Shown here: positions 26,650 through 55,645 of the stretch, one piece after another
Numbering within the stretch: the first letter of the stretch is position 1
How the letters are laid out: each line of letters starts with the position of its first letter
NCBI GenBank assembly: GCA_946699065.1
Contig: CAMPDV010000717.1
Location: 140,564-204,563 of the forward strand
Length of the DNA stretch: 64,000 nucleotides
Source of the DNA: Loxodes magnus
Lineage: Eukaryota > Ciliophora > Karyorelictea > Loxodida > Loxodidae
Direction: 5' to 3'
Notes under the pieces: model-generated
The model's input: only the letters and a program-made list of their open reading frames with translations
Database searches by the model: none
What the model was told of the DNA's origin: nothing
Program-made: the position numbers and the translations under genes

Positions 26650-26664
26650 AAATAAGGACTATAA
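26650..26664 (+). repeat. Target-site duplication, left copy
   Basis: AAATAAGGACTATAA, identical to 27,498-27,512. It immediately precedes the A-rich leader and ATG of the half-LINE. Confidence 0.85.
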
Positions 26665-27497
26665 TAAAAAAAAATGGAATAATCTATTCGCCTTTCCAAA
26701 AACCAAATTAAGAACGCAAAAAGGAAAGCTGCGAAACTAATGCAGAAACAATAACAAGAAGAAGATAAATCAAGTTCCTCATCTGAAGGAAAAGTTATAA
26801 TTGGAACAATAGAGACGAATCCAGTAAAAGTACAAAAATAATCAGAAATCTAAATATAAATTGACTAAATGAAAACAATAATACAAAATTATTAGGAAAC
26901 AATTTACAATCAAGGGGAAAAAATAAGAGAACTAATGAATACTATCGAAGATTAAAACAACGAGCTACTAATAATAAGACGACAATTAATTTAAAATAAT
27001 TTAGTCACGGAATAGTAACTATATGAATAATCTCAATCGAATTTTAAGCAAGAACAAAATATGATTATTGAAAAAGTTTCTAAATAAACAAACATCCAAG
27101 AAAAATAGAATGACGAAAAGATTAATATAGAATTACTCCAAAGAATCGATTAACTTGAAAAAAAAGTATTTCTGAAGAGATTCAAGAAAAGACCAATCAA
27201 AAATTGCTATTATTGCAAATCAAAGTGACACCTATTACAAAATTGCGATCAGTGAAGATAAATTTAGATGAAAGAACAACAAAGAACGTTAAGAATGCTT
27301 AGCAGACTCTGAATCACCGAAACGGGAATTTACAAGAAGAAGATATTCGTATAAAAGACAGAAGATTCTCAGTGGTTCCATCCACAAAAAAAAATGGCGT
27401 GGTATCCATCCACGCTAAAAAAATGGTAGCAAAAACCTGGTTGAAAATCCAGGGGACGCTAAACTTTAATTACTTTTAGTTTACTAAAAAAAAAAAA
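26665..27497 (+). mobile_element. Gag-only non-LTR retroelement (half-LINE), copy 1
   Basis: A ~830-bp unit is bounded by a perfect 15-bp target-site duplication. It starts with an A-rich leader (TAAAAAAAA) right at the ORF1 ATG, encodes a coiled-coil plus zinc-knuckle gag protein, and then has a 3' region with three hairpins: GTGG/CCAC at 27,372-27,385; GCGTGG/CCACGC at 27,397-27,415; CCTGG/CCAGG at 27,436-27,453. It ends TTTAGTTTACTA plus a poly-A run of ~15. There is no endonuclease or reverse transcriptase. The copy inside the satellite (54,151-54,897) has the same layout, so the gag-only form is a repeated unit, not a random deletion. It presumably depends on a full-length relative for mobility. 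Confidence 0.8.
26674..27228 (+). CDS. Retroelement ORF1 (gag-like) with coiled coil and zinc knuckle
   Basis: In ciliate code the ATG at 26,674 opens 184 codons to TGA 27,226. A basic N-terminus (MEQSIRLSKNQIKNAKRKAA) is followed by a Ser-rich acidic patch, the motif KVIIGT, and a long coiled coil rich in Gln/Glu/Ile (QIDQMKTIIQNYQETIYNQ and on). The protein ends in CYYCKSK; reading past the TGA gives HLLQNC, which completes a CX2CX4HX4C zinc knuckle, then TGA 27,253. The first TGA therefore lies inside the knuckle, at a position often Gly in this motif (GGA to TGA would explain it). The protein would bind the element RNA. It is essentially intact apart from that codon. Confidence 0.8.
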
Positions 27498-27512
27498 AAA
27501 TAAGGACTATAA
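27498..27512 (+). repeat. Target-site duplication, right copy
   Basis: AAATAAGGACTATAA, directly after the poly-A tail of the half-LINE and identical to 26,650-26,664. Confidence 0.85.
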
Positions 27513-28291: not shown

Positions 28292-28551
28292 GAAGTCATT
28301 TTGATTATATTTATAAGAAATATAAAGATGTTAAGTTTATCATTAGTTATTTGAATATAAAATTGGTTAAGGAAATTTAGGAAATTAGTATTCTTTATTA
28401 TGACGCTTGTAACAAAGAATCAATAAAACGTAGATAGATAGAAGACAGAAGAACAAGAGATATTGAAGAAGAAAATGATGAAGATATGGAACTAATAAGA
28501 GAAGAATTTTTATTACCTGAAGGCTTACTTGAAGAAATAGACATTTATTGA
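28192..28551 (+). CDS. C-terminal coding segment with acidic tail
   Basis: Open in ciliate code from 28,192 to TGA 28,549, about 119 codons. A hydrophobic helix (INLLLLALSFFV) leads into SQWLRSHFDYIYKKYKDVKF and a strongly charged tail (TRDIEEENDEDMELIREEFL, ending LLEEIDIY). It overlaps the preceding ORF in another frame and is probably the continuation of the same protein. It is followed at once by a GC-rich hairpin. I do not recognise it. Confidence 0.5.
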
Positions 28552-28563
28552 AACATTTATTAA

Positions 28564-28596
28564 AGAGCTGCGCACCAACGAGGTGCTACGCGCTCT
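28564..28596 (+). terminator. GC-rich hairpin just after the stop codon
   Basis: AGAGC (28,564-28,568) pairs with GCTCT (28,592-28,596), GCG (28,570-28,572) with CGC (28,589-28,591), and CACC (28,573-28,576) with GGTG (28,582-28,585), around an AACGA loop. The only strong GC stem for hundreds of bases, it starts 13 nt after TGA 28,549-28,551. It may be a 3'-UTR processing element or a retroelement 3' structure; the role is inferred. Confidence 0.5.
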
Positions 28597-28599
28597 ATA

Positions 28600-29860
28600 A
28601 TCAAATTTATTTATATAAAAATATAAAATGGATATCTGACTAATATTTTATTAAAGCAATTAAACTAAATTTTTTGTACTTGAGATATTTTTATTTTTAC
28701 AGTTTATTTTATATAATTTTGTTCTAGTAAATTTTGAATTTTGCCTTTAAATAGACCAATAATTTATGAGGAAACTATAGATAATTTTATTTATCAAAGC
28801 GTAAATAAAATGATGAAAGTCATCCTTGAGAATTTATTTATACTTAATGTCTAGCAATCATATTGAGTAATATTATTGAAAAATTTATATTTCTCATTAT
28901 TATTTTGGTTGCTAGCATATGTTTCTAAAGGATTAATAACTTTGTTATGAGATAAAGATCTAGCAACCATATTAGAGCTATAAAATAGTTATTAGGCTTA
29001 GTTAACAACTAAATATTAATAAAGACTCCTTAGGCTCCTTTATCTGCAAATACACTAATCGATCGTTATCTTAAATAGCAACCAATCATCCAATTCTTCC
29101 ATTTCAATCCCCATATTAAAAAAATCAAAATTCCCTTAAACCACATACTATTATTTCTATCTTAACTAGATAACACTAAGAGAATTTTAAATATTACAAT
29201 GCAGAGAGTTAATTAAAAATAAAGTAACTTAATCATAATTTAATATTAGAAAGTAAATCATAAGACTTTACTGCTATTACAATACTTAACTCTACTTTCT
29301 TATTAACTTTTCATTCTTTTAGCCATTCAATCATATCTGAGAACATTAAGTAAGTATGATAATGAAAGTACCTTAACTATTAAAGGGTCATCAAGAAAGG
29401 GCTTTTTTACATTATCTCTTATTTGAAACTTAAATAGACCAATTAACTCAAATAAATAGTAAAAAACTAAATTTTAGGGATAGAAATAATAGATTGATGA
29501 AAAGATATATTCTTAATTCTTAATTATCTTCTTAAGCAGAGTGAATGCATAGGATAATGCAAGATTAATTCTAAGTTTAAGTATTAAAAAAGATACACAA
29601 TTAAAAACACTGGAAATGATAAATATGAATACTATAATGCAGAATTATAAATACTTTATAGACTTTTTTATTATATAGTAAGATATTTTTCTGGTAGGGT
29701 GTGAGGATGAGGCTGAATAACTAAAAAATCACAAAATTAAATTGATCTCTATTTTTATTATAATAATAATATCATTAATTAATAGAATATCAAGCAATAT
29801 TATAAGATCAATAAAGATATAAATGATAAATATTAAAATATTTAGATAGCTATACAACTT
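28600..29860. other. A+T-rich spacer, nothing recognised
   Basis: No sustained coding frame or structured RNA seen between the hairpin and the next retroelement. Confidence 0.35.
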
Positions 29861-30051: not shown

Positions 30052-30327
30052 ATGGCATAGGAGATGTGCAAAAAGATGAAGTAATTAAGTAATTTCTCTA
30101 ATATTTAAGACGAAAATACGAATAGTGCATTAAAATAATTAAACTGCTTCCTTGTAGAATTATCAATATCTTTTCAATAATAATAATCAATCGAGAATTC
30201 GCCTAAATAAAAGAATGACAATAAAAGATGTAATCTAAACTCGCTGAAAAAAGAAAGTTCTAATAGTTTTAAGATATCATTAAGAATTATCCATTACATT
30301 GGAAATTCGATATAGGCACTTGTTTGA
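30052..30327 (+). CDS. Retroelement ORF1, N-terminal part
   Basis: ATG 30,052 follows the leader ATAAAAAAA, the same leader-plus-ATGG arrangement as the half-LINEs. The frame is open for 91 codons to TGA 30,325 (MAQEMCKKMKQLSNFSNIQD..., ALKQLNCFLVELSISFQQQQ). ORF1 coding appears to continue in a second frame (about 30,245-30,777: NKADGYTNCKISNVSEWKYI, EAIIDIFKKAENFQIKTF), with TGAs at 30,443 and ~30,521. The protein is hydrophilic, Gln/Asn/Lys-rich and shows no clear zinc knuckle. Confidence 0.5.
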
Positions 30328-31142
30328 GTTAAATAGAGTTGAATCTATAGCATTTTGGAGCAATAAAGCAGACGGATATACAAATTGTAAAATAAGCAAC
30401 GTGAGTGAATGGAAATATATCCACATAATTAGAGCTACGTAATGAAGAGAATTAAAAAAATCTCAAGGGAATTAATTTTAGAAGGATGGATTACTAAAAT
30501 CAGTCATCCAACTATTTTAAATATGAAGCATGCCAAATATCTGGACTCAAACAAAATAAAGCAGAAGGAATGAAGCTATAATAGACATATTCAAAAAGGC
30601 CGAAAATTTTTAAATTAAAACTTTTCAATAAGTAAATAGAAAAGATGCTTCCTCTAAAAATAGTGAGAATTTGGAAAATATAGAAGATGGAAATAATGTG
30701 AAAGTAATGAGAAAATAGCATAATAATAAAAGGTAAATTTAGGCAATAAAAAGTAAGAATAAGTTCAATATATATTGAACCTATTCACAGACAAATATTA
30801 TCTTTTGGGAACGCGAAAATTCATTTAAATGAACAAGATAAGAAAACATGGACTTTCTTAAGAAGATCCAAAACATGAAGTAAAACATAGTATTAAAATA
30901 AGGTAGAAAAAACAAGAATATAATGAAGAATAGAAATTTTTTAATAGAATAAAGATCGTTACCAAGAATAGACACAAATAAAGTATAATGGCAAAAAAGA
31001 GAAAAATAGTTATGCAATTAAAAAACATGACACAATAGAAACCAGAAACGCTAGAAGATTTTGGATTTTGTAACTCAAAATAAACTGGATCAAAAAAGAA
31101 GAAATCTAAAATAAAGAAATAATAAATTAGACATAAGCAAGC

Positions 31143-31790
31143 ATGATATTTTTAAATCAACTAAAATTAGGAACAGCAAACGTAAGAGGAATCAAGTCAA
31201 ACAAAATAGAACTAAGTAAATTCTTGCAAGACAAAGAAATAGATTAAATAGCGATTTTAGAAATTTTTTGTGAATAAATATCGAAATACCAAAGATCTTT
31301 GGTTATCAGGCAATAAAAAAACAGGATAGATAAACACAGTAAGGGAGTAACCTTTTATAAAAAGAGCAAATTATAAAAAGAATAAAAGAATGAGATGCAG
31401 TTGGACTTAATCAAGCTGAAATCATTTAGGTAGGAAGAATAATATGCTTGTGAGAGGATAATAGGATAGCAATAATAAATGCATACACGCCCACAAAACA
31501 GAGCTGGAATAGTTAAATCCTTTTTATGTGGATTAAGACAATTTATACGCATGACAATTAGTCAAGGATTATAGACATTAATTCAAGGTGATTTTAATGC
31601 GCATATTCTGTAATTCTTACCTTATGAATTAAATCTAGCAGGATAACAATTATCGGATTTAATGAGAGAATTTAAACTCAAATGCAAAGATCCAACTTTC
31701 CTCGATACATAAAGAAAAATAAAATTAAAAATCTCTACTTTCTAACTGATCAATTTGTTACTCTGTAAATAATTAGTACTAAATTTTACC
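31143..31790 (+). pseudogene. Retroelement ORF2: APE-type endonuclease domain, frameshifted
   Basis: From ATG 31,143 the frame gives KLGTANVRGIKSNKIELSKF and DQIAILEIF, the N-x-R-G and catalytic-Glu segments of LINE endonucleases. Near 31,270 the match moves to another frame (GYQAIKKQDR, RIAIINAYTPTKQSW), and by ~31,550 it returns to the first frame with QGDFNAH (31,584-31,604) and DPTFLDT. These are the diagnostic GDFNAH and DPTFLD motifs that nick target DNA in target-primed reverse transcription. Two compensating frameshifts make it non-functional. The same frame is open upstream to 30,927, so the true start is uncertain; ATG 31,143 overlaps a TGA (ATGA). Confidence 0.8.
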
Positions 31791-32940
31791 AAAGAAGGGT
31801 TTATTTGCTTAAATAGTCGAAGATCTATGATTTTTAGAATGTGATTAAAATTGATTTCGACCTATTGTTCTTAGGATATTCTATGTTTCATTTTTTTTGA
31901 AACAGCACTATATAAGATTCTTTAAGTTGCTACAGTATTTTCTCCGATTGTAAAATTTTCTGTATTTTTTTTGTTGCTAAATTTAAAAGATTTTCACCAC
32001 CTACTTATATTTAGTCTGATTCAGCAGCCTTTCATTTACTTAGTTTATTTATATAATTTATTATGTTTTTTATCTGAATCTTTATTTTAGTTTTATTTTT
32101 AAATTGATCTGATAATCTGCTTTCACCTTTCTTGTATAGTTCTTTTCAGTAATTTTATAAATTTCTAAATGTTTTCTTCGTTTAGTAGTATTCAGAAAGC
32201 ATATTTTCTTTATTTGAACCACTTTTATATATTTTTAGAAGTATCATTTAGGCTTCCTTGATTTCCCTTATCAAGAAAAATATTGAATTAATTTCTTCTG
32301 TTTTTTCTTTCTTAAATTCTGTATCTACTTCTTTCTTCTTGTCTCAATTTTATTTACCGATCTATGTAAAAGTTTTCTTATCTTATCAATCTTTTAACGT
32401 GCTTCTCTTACTTTCTAAATTTTTTTTGTCTTATTGTTTCTATAGAGTATTTTATTTTCTCATTGTGTATGCTATATTTCCACATGTTTCTTAGATTCTT
32501 CCTTACTTTTTTTCCTATCATTTCTAATAGAAATGTTTGCTGTCTAGATTTAAAAAATCTTACATTCTATCTTTTCCGCTCATTTTTTAAATTTTTTCTG
32601 AACTTTTTGTCGTTTTAATCCTAATCCTTTTAAATTTTGCGTTTTACCTGCTTTTCAAATAGTTTATATTTAATTACTGTTTACTATTAAATTTTATATA
32701 ATTTTTTCTTTAGGGGTATTTTAGATCAAGTTATTGATCAATTTTCTTGCTCACTTTCTATTTTTCACTTTTTTTATTCTGTTTATTCTATTTTTTCTTT
32801 TTAGTTATTAAATATTTGTTTCTTAATTGGAAATACTTAAGATTTTTGAGATTATTTTCTTAAACTTATTAAGTATTTATATATAAATTAGATTATTCTT
32901 TTTACTTTTTAACAAGTTTACCAAGGGAGAAACTATTTCT
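31791..32940 (-). pseudogene. Minus-strand A-rich coding remnant, probably retroelement
   Basis: Read on the minus strand in ciliate code, most of 32,890-31,800 is open in long segments. They include SGKDRMQDFLNLDSKHF, KNLRNMWKYSIHNEKIKYS, HVKRLIRQENFYIDRQIKL and IFLDKGNQGSLND, then KILQQLKESYIVLFQKK. The composition and the order of Arg/Lys-rich helices resemble the linker between endonuclease and reverse transcriptase of LINE elements, and the segment abuts an opposite-strand LINE. No RT catalytic motif (F/YADD) was found, so the call is tentative. The T-rich plus-strand ORF at 32,258-32,494 is its shadow. Confidence 0.35.
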
Positions 32941-50800: not shown

Positions 50801-53800
50801 ATCTTAAAATAAATAAAATTAAATTTAAGTAAAACTGATTTTAATTTAAATAAAATTAAATTTAAGTAAAACTGATTTAAAATAAATAAAATTAAATTTA
50901 AGTAAAACTGATTTAAAATAAATAAAATTTAATTTAAGTAAAACTGATTTAAAATAAATAAAATTAAATTTAAGTAAAACTGATTTAAAATAAATAAAAT
51001 TAAATTTAAGTAAAACTGATTTAAAATAAATAAAATTAAATTTAAGTAAAACTGATTTAAAATAAATAAAATTTAATTTAAGTAAAACTGAGTTAAAATA
51101 AATAAAATTTAATTTAAGTAAAACTGATTTAAATCAAATAAAATTAAATTTAAGTAAAACTGATTTAAAATAAATAAAATTTAATTTAAGTAAAACTGAT
51201 TTAAAATAAATAAAATTTAATTTAAGTAAAACTGATTTAAAATAAATAAAATTTAATTTAAGTAAAACTGATTTTAATTTAAATAAAATTAAATTTAAGT
51301 AAAACTGATTTAAAATAAATAAAATTAAATTTAAGTAAAACTGATTTAAAATAAATAAAATTAAATTTAAGTAAAACTGATCTTAAAATAAATAAAATTA
51401 AATTTAAGTAAAACTGATTTAAAATAAATAAAATTAAATTTAAGTAAAACTGATTTAAAATAAATAAAATTAAATTTAAGTAAAACTGATTTAAAATAAA
51501 TAAAATTAAATTTAAGTAAAACTGATTTTAAAATAAATAAAATTAAATTTAAGTAAAACTGATTTAAAATAAATAAAATTAAATTTAAGTAAAACTGATT
51601 TAAAATAAATAAAATTAAATTTAAGTAAAACTGATTTAAAATAAATAAAATTAAATTTAAGTAAAACTGATTTTAATTTAAATAAAATTAAATTTAAGTA
51701 AAACTGATTTAATTGAATAAAATTAAATTTAAGTAAAACTGATTTAATTTAAATAAAATTAAATTTAAGTAAAACTGATTTAAAATAAATAAAATTAAAT
51801 TTAAGTAAAACTGATTTAAAATAAATAAAATTAAATTTAAGTAAAACTGATTTAAAATAAATAAAATTAAATTTAAGTAAAACTGATTTTAAAATAAATA
51901 AAATTTAATTTAAGTAAAACTGATTTAAAATAAATAAAATTAAATTTAAGTAAAACTGATTTAAAATAAATAAAATTAAATTTAAGTAAAACTGATTTAA
52001 AATAAATAAAATTTAATTTAAGTAAAACTGATTTTAATTTAAATAAAATTAAATTTAAGTAAAACTGATTTAAAATAAATAAAATTAAATTTAAGTAAAA
52101 CTGATTTTAAATTAAATAAAATTAAATTTAAGTAAAACTGATTTTAAAATAAATAAAATTAAATTTAAGTAAAACTGATTTAAAATAAATAAAATTAAAT
52201 TTAAGTAAAACTGATTTTAAAATAAATAAAATTAAATTTAAGTAAAACTGATTTTAATTTAAATAAAATTAAATTTAAGTAAAACTGATTTTAAAATAAA
52301 TAAAATTAAATTTAAGTAAAACTGATTTTAAAATAAATAAAATTAAATTTAAGTAAAACTGATTTTAAAATAATAAAATTAAATTTAAGTAAAACTGATT
52401 TAAAATAAATAAATTTAAATTTAAGTAAAACTGATTTAAAATAAATAAAATTAAATTTAAGTAAAACTGATTTAATTTAAATAAAATTAAATTTAAGTAA
52501 AACTGATTTTAAAATAAATAAAATTAAATTTAAGTAAAACTGATTTAAAATAAATAAAATTAAATTTAAGTAAAACTGATTTTAAAATAAATAAAATTAA
52601 ATTTAAGTAAAACTGATTTAATTTAAATAAAATTAAATTTAAGTAAAACTGATTTAAAATAAATAAAATTAAATTTAAGTAAAACTGATTTAATTTAAAT
52701 AAAATTAAATTTAAGTAAAACTGATTTTAATTTAAATAAAATTAAATTTAAGTAAAACTGATTTAATTTAAATAAAATTAAATTTAAGTAAAACTGATTT
52801 TAAAATAAATAAAATTAAATTTAAGTAAAACTGATTTAAAATAAATAAAATTAAATTTAAGTAAAACTGATTTAAAATAAATAAAATTAAATTTAAGTAA
52901 AACTGATTTAATTTAAATAAAATTAAATTTAAGTAAAACTGATTTAAATTAAATAAAATTAAATTTAAGTAAAACTGATTTTAAAATAAATAAAATTAAA
53001 TTTAAGTAAAACTGATTTTAATTTAAATAAAATTAAATTTAAGTAAAACTGATTTAATTTAAATAAAATTAAATTTAAGTAAAACTGATTTTAAATTAAA
53101 TAAAATTAAATTTAAGTAAAACTGATTTTAAAATAAATAAAATTAAATTTAAGTAAAACTGATTTTAAAATAAATAAAATTAAATTTAAGTAAAACTGAG
53201 TTTAAAATAAATAAAATTAAATTTAAGTAAAACTGATTTTAAAATAAATAAAATTAAATTTAAGTAAAACTGATTTTAAAATAAATAAAATTAAATTTAA
53301 GTAAAACTGATTTAATTTAAATAAAATTAAATTTAAGTAAAACTGATTTAATTTAAATAAAATTAAATTTAAGTAAAACTGATTTTAAAATAAATAAAAT
53401 TAAATTTAAGTAAAACTGATTTAATTTAAATAAAATTAAATTTAAGTAAAACTGATCTTAATATAAATAAAATTAAATTTAAGTAAAACTGATCTTAATT
53501 TAAATAAAATTAAATTTAAGTAAAACTGATTATAAAATAAATAAAATTAAATTTAAGTAAAACTGATTTTAATTTAATAAAATTAAATTTAAGTAAAACT
53601 GATTTTAATATAAATAAAATTAAAATTAAGTAAAACTGATTTTAATATAAATAAAATTAAATTTAAGTAAAACTGATTTTAATTTAAATAAAATTAAATT
53701 TAAGTAAAACTGATTTTAAAATAAATAAAATTAAATTTAAGTAAAACTGATTTAATTTAAATAAAATTAAATTTAAGTAAAACTGATTTTAAATTAAATA

Positions 53801-54150
53801 AAATTAAATTTAAGTAAAACTGATTTTAATATAAATAAAATTAAATTTAAGTAAAACTGATTTTAATTTAAATAAAACTAAATTTAAGTAAAACTGATTT
53901 TAAAATAAATAAAATTAAATTTAAGTAAAACTGATTTTAAAATAAATGAAATTAAATTTAAGTAAAACTGATTTTAAAATAAATAAAATTAAATTTAAGT
54001 AAAACTGATTTTAATATAAATAAAATTAAATTTAAGTAAAACTGATTTTAATATAAATAAAATTAAATTTAAGTAAAACTGATTTTAATATAAATAAAAT
54101 TAAATTTAAGTAAAACTGATTTTAATATAAATTAAATTAAATTTAAATAA

Positions 54151-54897
54151 AAAAAAAAAGATGGAGCAGAACATTAGCTTAAATAAAAATCAAATAAGAA
54201 ATGCTCGGAAAAAGGCTTCTTAAGTTCTTTAAAAAGCAAAACAATAAGAAAATCAAGTTCCGACTCATAAGGTAAAATAATGATCGGAACTTTGCAAGCT
54301 GAGGAATTTAAATCAGATATTTCAGAGGAACTACGACAAAAGATCGAACAAATGTAAAAAATTATATCCCGATACGAAGAAACAATATATAATTAAGACT
54401 TTTAATACGGGAACTTACAACAAAATTGACGTGCAAAATAATGAAATGGAAATCCTTAAGAATCAGCTAATAGAAAAAAGGTAATAACGGAAGAACAACT
54501 TTGAATGTAATCGCAATAAAATCTTAACGTACATCAAAGATGGAAATTGAAAAAACTTTCACTCCATTTAAAGTGTTTAAAACAGAAAGAAATTAGATTG
54601 ATAAAACTTAAATAAAAGATAGAAAATATTAAGTAAAACTGATATTTAAAATAAATAAAATTAAATTTAAGTAAAGACTGAATTTGAAAAGGTAAATAAA
54701 ATTTGAAATGGATAACTCCAACAGGAATATACAAATAAAACTGCCTATGCGCTCTTTTGAAAGCAATCAGTGGTAACCATCCACATAAAAAATTCGCGGT
54801 ATCCATCCGAGTCAAAAAATGGCGGCAGGAACTGGTTGAAAGTCCAGAAATGCCAAAACATTTTTTTAACATTTAGTTTACTATTATTATTATTATA
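54151..54897 (+). mobile_element. Half-LINE copy 2, inserted in the satellite
   Basis: Same architecture as the element at 26,665: A-rich leader at the ATG (54,161), gag-like ORF, paired hairpins (GTGG 54,770-54,773 with CCAC 54,781-54,784; CTGG 54,832-54,835 with CCAG 54,844-54,847) and a terminal AACATTTAGTTTACTA. The tail is a TTA repeat instead of poly-A. There is no endonuclease or RT. The target-site duplication cannot be resolved within the satellite. Between the gag remnant and the hairpins lie two recognisable but altered satellite monomers (54,631-54,690). Confidence 0.8.
54161..54427 (+). pseudogene. Gag-like ORF1 of half-LINE copy 2 (frameshifted)
   Basis: The start MEQNISLNKNQIRNARKKAS parallels MEQSIRLSKNQIKNAKRKAA of copy 1. 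The frame meets TGA at 54,281. One base of frame change near 54,270 restores homology: KIMIGT, then KIEQMQKIISRYEETIYNQ, equivalent to the coiled coil of copy 1, until TGA near 54,427. The zinc knuckle is not recognisable here. Clearly inactive. Confidence 0.75.
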
Positions 54898-55645
54898 AAA
54901 TTAAATTTAAGTAAAACTGATTTAATTTAAATTTAAGTAAAAATTTTAAAATTTAATTTTAAGTAAAACTGATTTTAATATAAATAAAATTAAATTTAAG
55001 TAAAACTGATTTTAATTTAAATAAAATTAAATTTAAGTAAAACTGATTTTAATATAAATAAAATTAAATTTAAGTAAAACTGATTTTAATATAAATAAAA
55101 TTAAATTTAAGTAAAACTGATTTTAATTTAAATAAAATTAAATTTAAGTAAAACTGATTTTAATTTAAATAAAATTAAATTTAAGTAAAACTGATTTTAA
55201 TATAAATAAAATTAAAATTTAAGTAAAACTGATTTTAATATAAATAAAATTAAATTTAAGTAAAACTGATTTTAATTTAAATAAAATTAAATTTAAGTAA
55301 AACTGATTTTAATTTAAATAAAATTAAATTTAAGTAAAACTGATTTTAATTTAAATAAAATTAAATTTAAGTAAAACTGATTTTAATTTAAATAAAATTA
55401 AATTTAAGTAAAACTGATTTTAATTTAAATAAAATTAAATTTAAGTAAAACTGATTTTAATTTAAATAAAATTAAATTTAAGTAAAACTGATTTTAATAT
55501 TAATAAAATTAAATTTAAGTAAAACTGATTTTAATCTAAATAAAATTATATTTAAGTAAAACTGATTTTAAAATAAATAAAATTTAATTTAAGTAAAACT
55601 GATTTTAATTTAAATAAAATTAAATTTAAATAAAATTTATAATTT

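Follow-up and report, generated by a model that had tools for sequence, protein, structure and literature searches.

A gag-only retroelement of Loxodes magnus with its own ORF1 and three-hairpin 3' end, probably copied in trans by LINEs

Results

The stretch of DNA analyzed here, referred to as the window, comprises 64,000 nucleotides of the karyorelictean ciliate Loxodes magnus (contig CAMPDV010000717.1, positions 140,564 to 204,563, assembly GCA_946699065.1) and contains at 26665-27497 an intact element of ~820 bp that consists of one gag-like open reading frame (ORF1) and three 3' hairpins, with neither endonuclease (EN) nor reverse transcriptase (RT) inside. We consider it likely that this is an old gag-only, non-autonomous non-long terminal repeat (non-LTR) retroelement with its own ORF1, copied in trans by the EN/RT of long interspersed nuclear elements (LINEs). 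The element is flanked by a 15-bp direct repeat, AAATAAGGACTATAA, present at 26650-26664 and 27498-27512 (no strand assigned) as left and right target-site duplication (TSD); because the first three A's of the right copy merge with the A tail, the safe TSD length is 12-15 bp. All internal features lie on the plus strand. A very short A-rich leader (T followed by eight A's, 26665-26673), with a 5' end near-identical in the other copies read of its subfamily (sub1), precedes ORF1 (26674-27366), which starts with ATG at 26674 and, in the karyorelict code (TAA/TAG as Gln, TGA as Trp), is open over the 231 codons that precede the hairpins. ORF1 harbors a coiled-coil-like stretch (residues 55-122, 26836-27039), recognized by heptad periodicity against shuffled sequences, a CCHC zinc knuckle of the form C-X2-C-X4-H-X4-C (CYYCKSKWHLLQNC, 27205-27246) with a Trp encoded by TGA and, C-terminal to the knuckle, a conserved W-I-T-x-x-G-I-Y-K motif (27310-27336). 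The three hairpins span 27372-27461 (fold of 27360-27487, z = -3.1), comprising hairpin 1 (GTGG..CCAC, 27372-27385), hairpin 2 (GCGTGG..CCACGC, 27397-27415) and hairpin 3 (27427-27461), the last with a two-part stem and the loop TTGAAA, and are followed by an A tail at 27486-27497. An earlier interpretation made from the letters alone, the sequence-only reading, had described the 15-bp duplication, ORF1, the three hairpins and the lack of EN and RT at these positions, all of which we confirmed.

At 41 of 42 independent sites, obtained from 53 sites with flanks by merging near-identical flanks, the element was bounded by a flank repeat of at least 12 bp (median 15), compared with 9 of 1722 mismatched flank pairs; the flank repeats are above chance. 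The one exception, locus L008, has a 7-bp flank repeat with an A-run upstream, and the 38-bp flank match at L083 does not represent a true TSD length because this locus lies in simple repeat. The copy of a third subfamily (sub3) displays an 18-bp TSD, and in some copies the TSD is separated from the 5' end by as many as 19 additional bases. Nineteen such bases are found at L044 and L045 (C496), where the element copy sits inside a LINE; the right flank there reads IFIDIKKAFD by eye and the locus matches LINE sequence. For comparison of integration signatures, we examined the TSDs of seven 5'-truncated LINE copies, which showed no repeat >10 bp and were not used, and no TSD was found for one longer LINE copy. 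Together, the element insertions occupy dispersed sites with variable-length flank repeats and A-run or short-repeat tails. With a fixed 5' end and these repeats, the sequence-only view of a genuine 5' end, TSDs and a non-autonomous gag-only element in many copies stood, but its assumption of a poly-A tail as the rule did not: A-runs are present at 3 of 35 sub1 sites (the window, L004 and L005) and the tails at the other 32 start with TA or TTA repeats. Some TA/TTA tails are very short or imperfect (e.g. L008, L057 and L072). The type of tail follows subfamily: most copies of sub1a have TA repeats, and sub1 copies of greater divergence, like those of a second subfamily, sub2, have TTA repeats.

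These tails bear on whether the copies might be retrocopies of a cellular zinc-knuckle gene, that is, processed pseudogenes of a host mRNA repeatedly copied by LINEs. While the TSDs, a 3' tail, an intact ORF and the A-runs at three sites also fit such an origin, most sampled tails are TA/TTA repeats going with subfamily, all lineages read terminate in a 3' end of one kind, and multiplication took place in several of them, at different ages; we regard retrocopies as very improbable.

In the assembly searched (705.7 Mb), the 5' end of the element was matched 596 times and its 3' end (hairpin 3) 630 times, each with at most 3 mismatches and with 0 matches in the reversed control; both counts take in redundant contigs and tandem copies. 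Identical flanks were noted for L001, L002 and L003. On contig C1201 (L056-L058) there are at least nine element copies, and the six read with flanks have one common flank set, so one insertion there seems to have been multiplied in tandem. The hairpin 3 sequence CTGGTTGAAANNCCAG had 1501 exact matches, all loop types included (reversed control 0), and LINE1 3' ends numbered 1638. The similarity of the 5' and 3' counts suggests that most copies are full length, both ends having been paired in fetched copies only. When the assembly was searched with the element, the best 40 of 3106 candidates were all 99-100% identical over at least 819 nt. Copies of sub1a are 99-100% alike and the 3' ends of sub2 93-96%, with sub3 copies more decayed.

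All 61 relatives sampled on this point lacked ORF2 and had ORF1 directly followed by the hairpins; they comprise 14 copies fetched from listed 5' ends, 6 sub2 copies, the sub3 copy, 20 sub3-type 3' ends and 20 ends with other loops. The 14 copies, picked among the 100 5' ends listed first (of 596) for having no listed 3' match (at most 1 mismatch) beside them, all had the hairpins at ~820 bp. All 6 sub2 copies (of 40 listed) and the sub3 copy were gag-only, and ORF1 lay directly upstream in 20/20 sub3-type 3' ends (of 216) and in 20/20 ends with three other hairpin-3 loop types (of 1501, all types). Most of the relatives found by their 3' ends were read only 0.4-0.5 kb upstream and many are decayed; ORF1 was recognized in them by the knuckle or an L-x-I-T motif, only one of which was readable in some, and five of the 20 other-loop loci (L111, L121, L125, L126 and L127) were classed by eye from their frames. 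Among the longer loci, L109 and L112 start like MEQSVR and have flank repeats of 17 and 15 bp, L120 has the start and a 10-bp repeat, and L126, with an unrelated stretch within its ORF1 region, is too decayed (7 bp).

The window holds a second, decayed copy on the plus strand at 54150-54897 (ends approximate; hairpins at 54770-54881), which the sequence-only reading took for another copy of the same element. It does have the same kind of start and end, yet it belongs to a different lineage, sub2; its match to the element, compared within the window, is limited to 121 nt with 75% identity, and an intact member of its lineage has an ORF1 42% identical to that of the window element. Satellite-like sequence stands in place of its middle, and the copy lies within a short-period satellite array at ~53800-55300. 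With only two copies in the window, and these differing, one could picture independent internal deletions in two copies of one LINE, the outcome that the sequence-only reading had tied to other copies carrying ORF2 between ORF1 and the hairpins. No such copy was seen in the 61 relatives; there are hundreds of end matches, the 14 fetched copies have the same ends and no ORF2, and the lineages of both window copies each hold intact gag-only copies. We rejected independent deletions, now scarcely conceivable to us, on finding ORF1 directly before the hairpins in sub1, sub2, sub3-type and other-loop relatives alike. It is also quite unlikely that a rare autonomous element sharing this ORF1 and these hairpins exists as the parent and was overlooked. 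Such a parent could have escaped us in that upstream sequence was read for 61 relatives of at least 1501 hairpin-3 matches and 150 of 3403 RT candidates were scored, but one equally old should leave 5'-truncated ORF2 pieces before the hairpins, of which the 61 relatives hold none, and the 5' count (596) is not far from the 3' count (630).

The sequence-only reading had placed the element in a ciliate germline and pointed to Tetrahymena, whereas the host is L. magnus, the assembly is most likely macronuclear and TGA is Trp. Tetrahymena was rejected as the origin on in-frame TGA in RT matches and TGA as Trp in ORF1. Each of 150 scored matches to RVT_1 contains all three of TAA, TAG and TGA in frame. 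The L. magnus macronuclear assembly is described as 706 Mbp with translation table 27 (UGA as Trp or stop) and ~2,700 RVT_1 copies (PMC11441545), and L. magnus is reported there to be without extensive DNA elimination; the proposed check that copies be absent from the macronucleus is inapplicable for this last reason. The terms 'non-autonomous' and 'short interspersed' do not occur in the main text of that paper (PMC11441545). Since this ciliate is reported to keep mobile elements in its macronucleus, element copies are present in the transcribed nucleus. The ORF1 frame runs past the knuckle only with TGA as Trp, compared with a stop within the knuckle under table 6. In the window copy, TAA/TAG are Gln, and TGA occurs at residues 185, 194 and 213 and also at 257, within hairpin 3; in sub1 the next in-frame TGA falls in the hairpin-3 loop. 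Among 73 segments with knuckle and L-x-I-T motif in one frame, some of them from redundant contigs or tandem copies, the variable codon of this motif was TGA in 45, TGG in 22, TTT in 3 and another in 3. Likewise, the Trp codon of the W-I-T-x-x-G-I-Y-K motif is TGA in the window copy, and the copies of sub2 and sub3 used for comparison have TGG. These codon comparisons indicate that TGA is read as Trp in ORF1.

Against its sister subfamily sub1b, ORF1 showed a ratio of nonsynonymous (dN) to synonymous (dS) divergence of 0.20 (sub1a vs. sub1b: dS 0.256, dN 0.051; 30 synonymous and 27 nonsynonymous changes), while the hairpin stretch had 0 synonymous and 5 nonsynonymous changes; in the out-of-frame control for this pair, one shifted frame retained some contrast (0.13 vs. 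0.07). Between sub1, sub2 and sub3, with 42-49% protein identity, the proportion of synonymous differences (pS) was 0.75-0.80 and that of nonsynonymous differences (pN) 0.30-0.36; reading the three deep pairs controlled in shifted frames abolished this contrast (pS 0.34-0.47, pN 0.40-0.46). Synonymous sites at saturation together with this pN show that ORF1 is under purifying selection across three deep lineages. There are at least three deep gag-only lineages. Heptad periodicity over residues 55-122 was reached by 20 of 2000 shuffles for the window copy and 35 of 2000 for sub3. ORF1 compared with Pfam and PDB sequences gave none over the cut-off (best Pfam E 0.023, best PDB E 0.53); the zinc knuckle call rests on spacing and conservation because no Pfam model matched.

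In an alignment of the hairpins from four lineages, 93.3% of cells pair. With 16 lineages, represented by single, partly decayed copies and not by subfamily consensuses, 82.7% of cells pair (12 of 500 shuffles as high) vs. 33-44% when the alignment is slid, although conservation of helix 4 is partly by construction because an exact hairpin-3 loop was the criterion for picking the 3' ends of sub3 and other types. In these alignments the hairpins are conserved; covariation supports them only weakly. A single Rfam match, at E 0.75 and 20.4 bits, scored far under the gathering threshold of 56 bits and was rejected.

RT-bearing LINEs are abundant in this genome, with 150 of 150 scored RVT_1 matches over the cut-off, of 3403 candidates. 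The sequence-only reading regarded the element as a 'half-LINE', and a HAL1-type derivative, in which a LINE has lost ORF2 while keeping its ORF1 and 3' end, would have the same architecture (ORF1 only) along with TSDs and a 3' tail. In 30 fetched RT loci with 1.5-kb flanks, however, we found no match to the 3' end of the element, and the 18 whose ends were read carry the LINE1 end, a different single hairpin with (TTTA)n. We ran a model of the element hairpins, R1, on the window, on 7 LINE pieces, including two 5' pieces, and on 26 of the 30 RT loci. Only the two window copies were matched strongly; the weak matches of R1 were L010 (E 0.021, the best), L061 (E 1) and L064 (E 4.6). ORF1 vs. 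the ORF1 regions of LINE1 and LINE2, compared in three frames, gave a best E of 0.51, the knuckles of the element and LINE1 aligning at E 0.97. For the few LINE families read, descent as a 'half-LINE' was thus not borne out, and in the suggested check of full-length elements for the same hairpins, the LINE 3' ends examined did not carry them. In addition, where they were read, the lineages that have reached synonymous saturation contain gag alone, so that a loss of ORF2 would not be recent.

One point in favor of a HAL1-type derivative comes from two decayed gag-like families, Y and Z, which rest on three decayed loci (L063 on C105, L010 and L026) and whose ends resemble LINE2, such that gag-only elements with a LINE 3' end may exist here. 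In a test of 3'-end resemblance (36 pairs, 300 shuffles each, uncorrected), none of 300 shuffles scored as high for LINE1-LINE3, LINE2-Y, Y-Zb, Za-Zb, LINE2-Za, Za-s1 and the sub1-sub2-sub3 pairs. The 3' end of family Y (C105) resembles that of LINE2 (the LINE of C321) by this measure, and Za resembles LINE2 (score 30) and, more weakly, sub1 (score 24); for LINE2 vs. sub1, 22 of 300 shuffles were as high. The resemblance of Za to sub1 is a lead only because its score is the lowest of these pairs. We take the Y/Z resemblances as a possible lead towards LINE2, not as evidence for LINE2 as helper, and consider a HAL1-type derivative unlikely. The Y and Z loci have a knuckle-like stretch and an L-Y-C-x-P..LYKK-like motif, with no RT seen downstream of the gag-like frames; family Y on C105 adjoins a LINE.

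LINE sequence also lies near the element in the window. At ~28398-28620 (plus strand) there is a strongly 5'-truncated LINE1 comprising the last ~220 bp, with a single 3' hairpin and a TTTA tail; it contrasts with the gag-only element of the same window, which is full length. Translated pieces of LINE2 (ORF1/EN/RT region) matched at ~30066-31742 (plus) and ~31891-32598 (minus), apparently a nested or rearranged LINE.

Discussion

The many full-length copies and the selection on ORF1 across very old branches make the Loxodes element look like a long-lived parasite of other mobile elements and not a broken fragment. We surmise that its RNA would be translated into ORF1 protein with UGA read as Trp, and that this protein may package its own RNA, largely in cis. 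EN and RT would be given in trans by one of the LINEs of the genome, with the RNA probably copied from its hairpin/tail end by target-primed reverse transcription. Selection would keep ORF1 intact because RNAs that make ORF1 are presumably copied better. As to a broader postulate, the chances seem to us evenly balanced: that these lineages form an ancient, diversified gag-only clade with no surviving autonomous relative, each with a selected ORF1 and its own three-hairpin end, hijacking the EN/RT of unrelated LINEs while Gag works in cis, recruiting the RNA or presenting it to the foreign enzyme. If this were true, the clade would be a retroelement parasite with its own chaperone.

Several observations weigh against a trans-copied element with a conserved ORF1 and 3' end. 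Among the few LINE families read, none had matching hairpins or a related ORF1 that would point to the source of the enzyme. Of 27 distinct sub1 sequences, drawn from 46 copies (the 40 best matches and the 14 fetched from 5' ends, combined), 6 have a frameshift before the hairpins and 21 keep the frame, with intactness biased upward because the 40 scored copies were the best matches. The sub2 copies (L080-L085) have no in-frame TGA from the end of ORF1 to the tail, the frame running into the (TTA)n tail, and the heptad periodicity was not significant in sub2 (253 of 2000 shuffles as high). Covariation is weak: with four lineages, both-sides changes affect three pairs, a number reached in 22 of 500 shuffles, and with 16 lineages, 307 of 500 shuffles were as high for both-sides changes and 113 of 500 for the covariation score.

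Non-autonomous elements are usually seen as gene-less, as in short interspersed nuclear elements (SINEs), or as by-products of LINEs, as in HAL1. A lineage that has only gag and keeps it under selection beyond synonymous saturation would make a natural test of what ORF1/Gag does alone, namely whether Gag confers cis preference and can deliver RNA to the enzyme of an unrelated LINE. SINEs are short, non-autonomous and LINE-dependent, with a short-repeat tail and no protein encoded; in contrast, the Loxodes element has an ORF1 under purifying selection. HAL1 ('half-L1') of mammals is described as a non-autonomous derivative of L1 that encodes ORF1 only and arose several times (PMC5753468). The window element, too, encodes ORF1 only and is non-autonomous, and to this extent the HAL1-like concept of the sequence-only reading, an interpretation partly supported as a whole, holds. 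HAL1 is moved by the L1 enzyme and has its ends in common with L1, whereas for the Loxodes element no match of ORF1 or 3' end was seen among the few LINE families read, and its gag-only lineages are old, with ORF1 under selection. The L. magnus LINEs rnd-1_family-27 and -19, in the same genome as the element, are the presumed enzyme donors, and the L. magnus LINEs read likewise end in a hairpin and a short-repeat tail. HeT-A of Drosophila telomeres encodes Gag and has long been maintained without its own RT, being added at chromosome ends without TSDs. The Loxodes element is similarly Gag only, without RT and long-lived, but is found at dispersed sites with TSDs. By analogy, the element would resemble HAL1 in content and HeT-A in longevity; we assign it to neither, and judged by its architecture it is a new variant among gag-only non-LTR elements.
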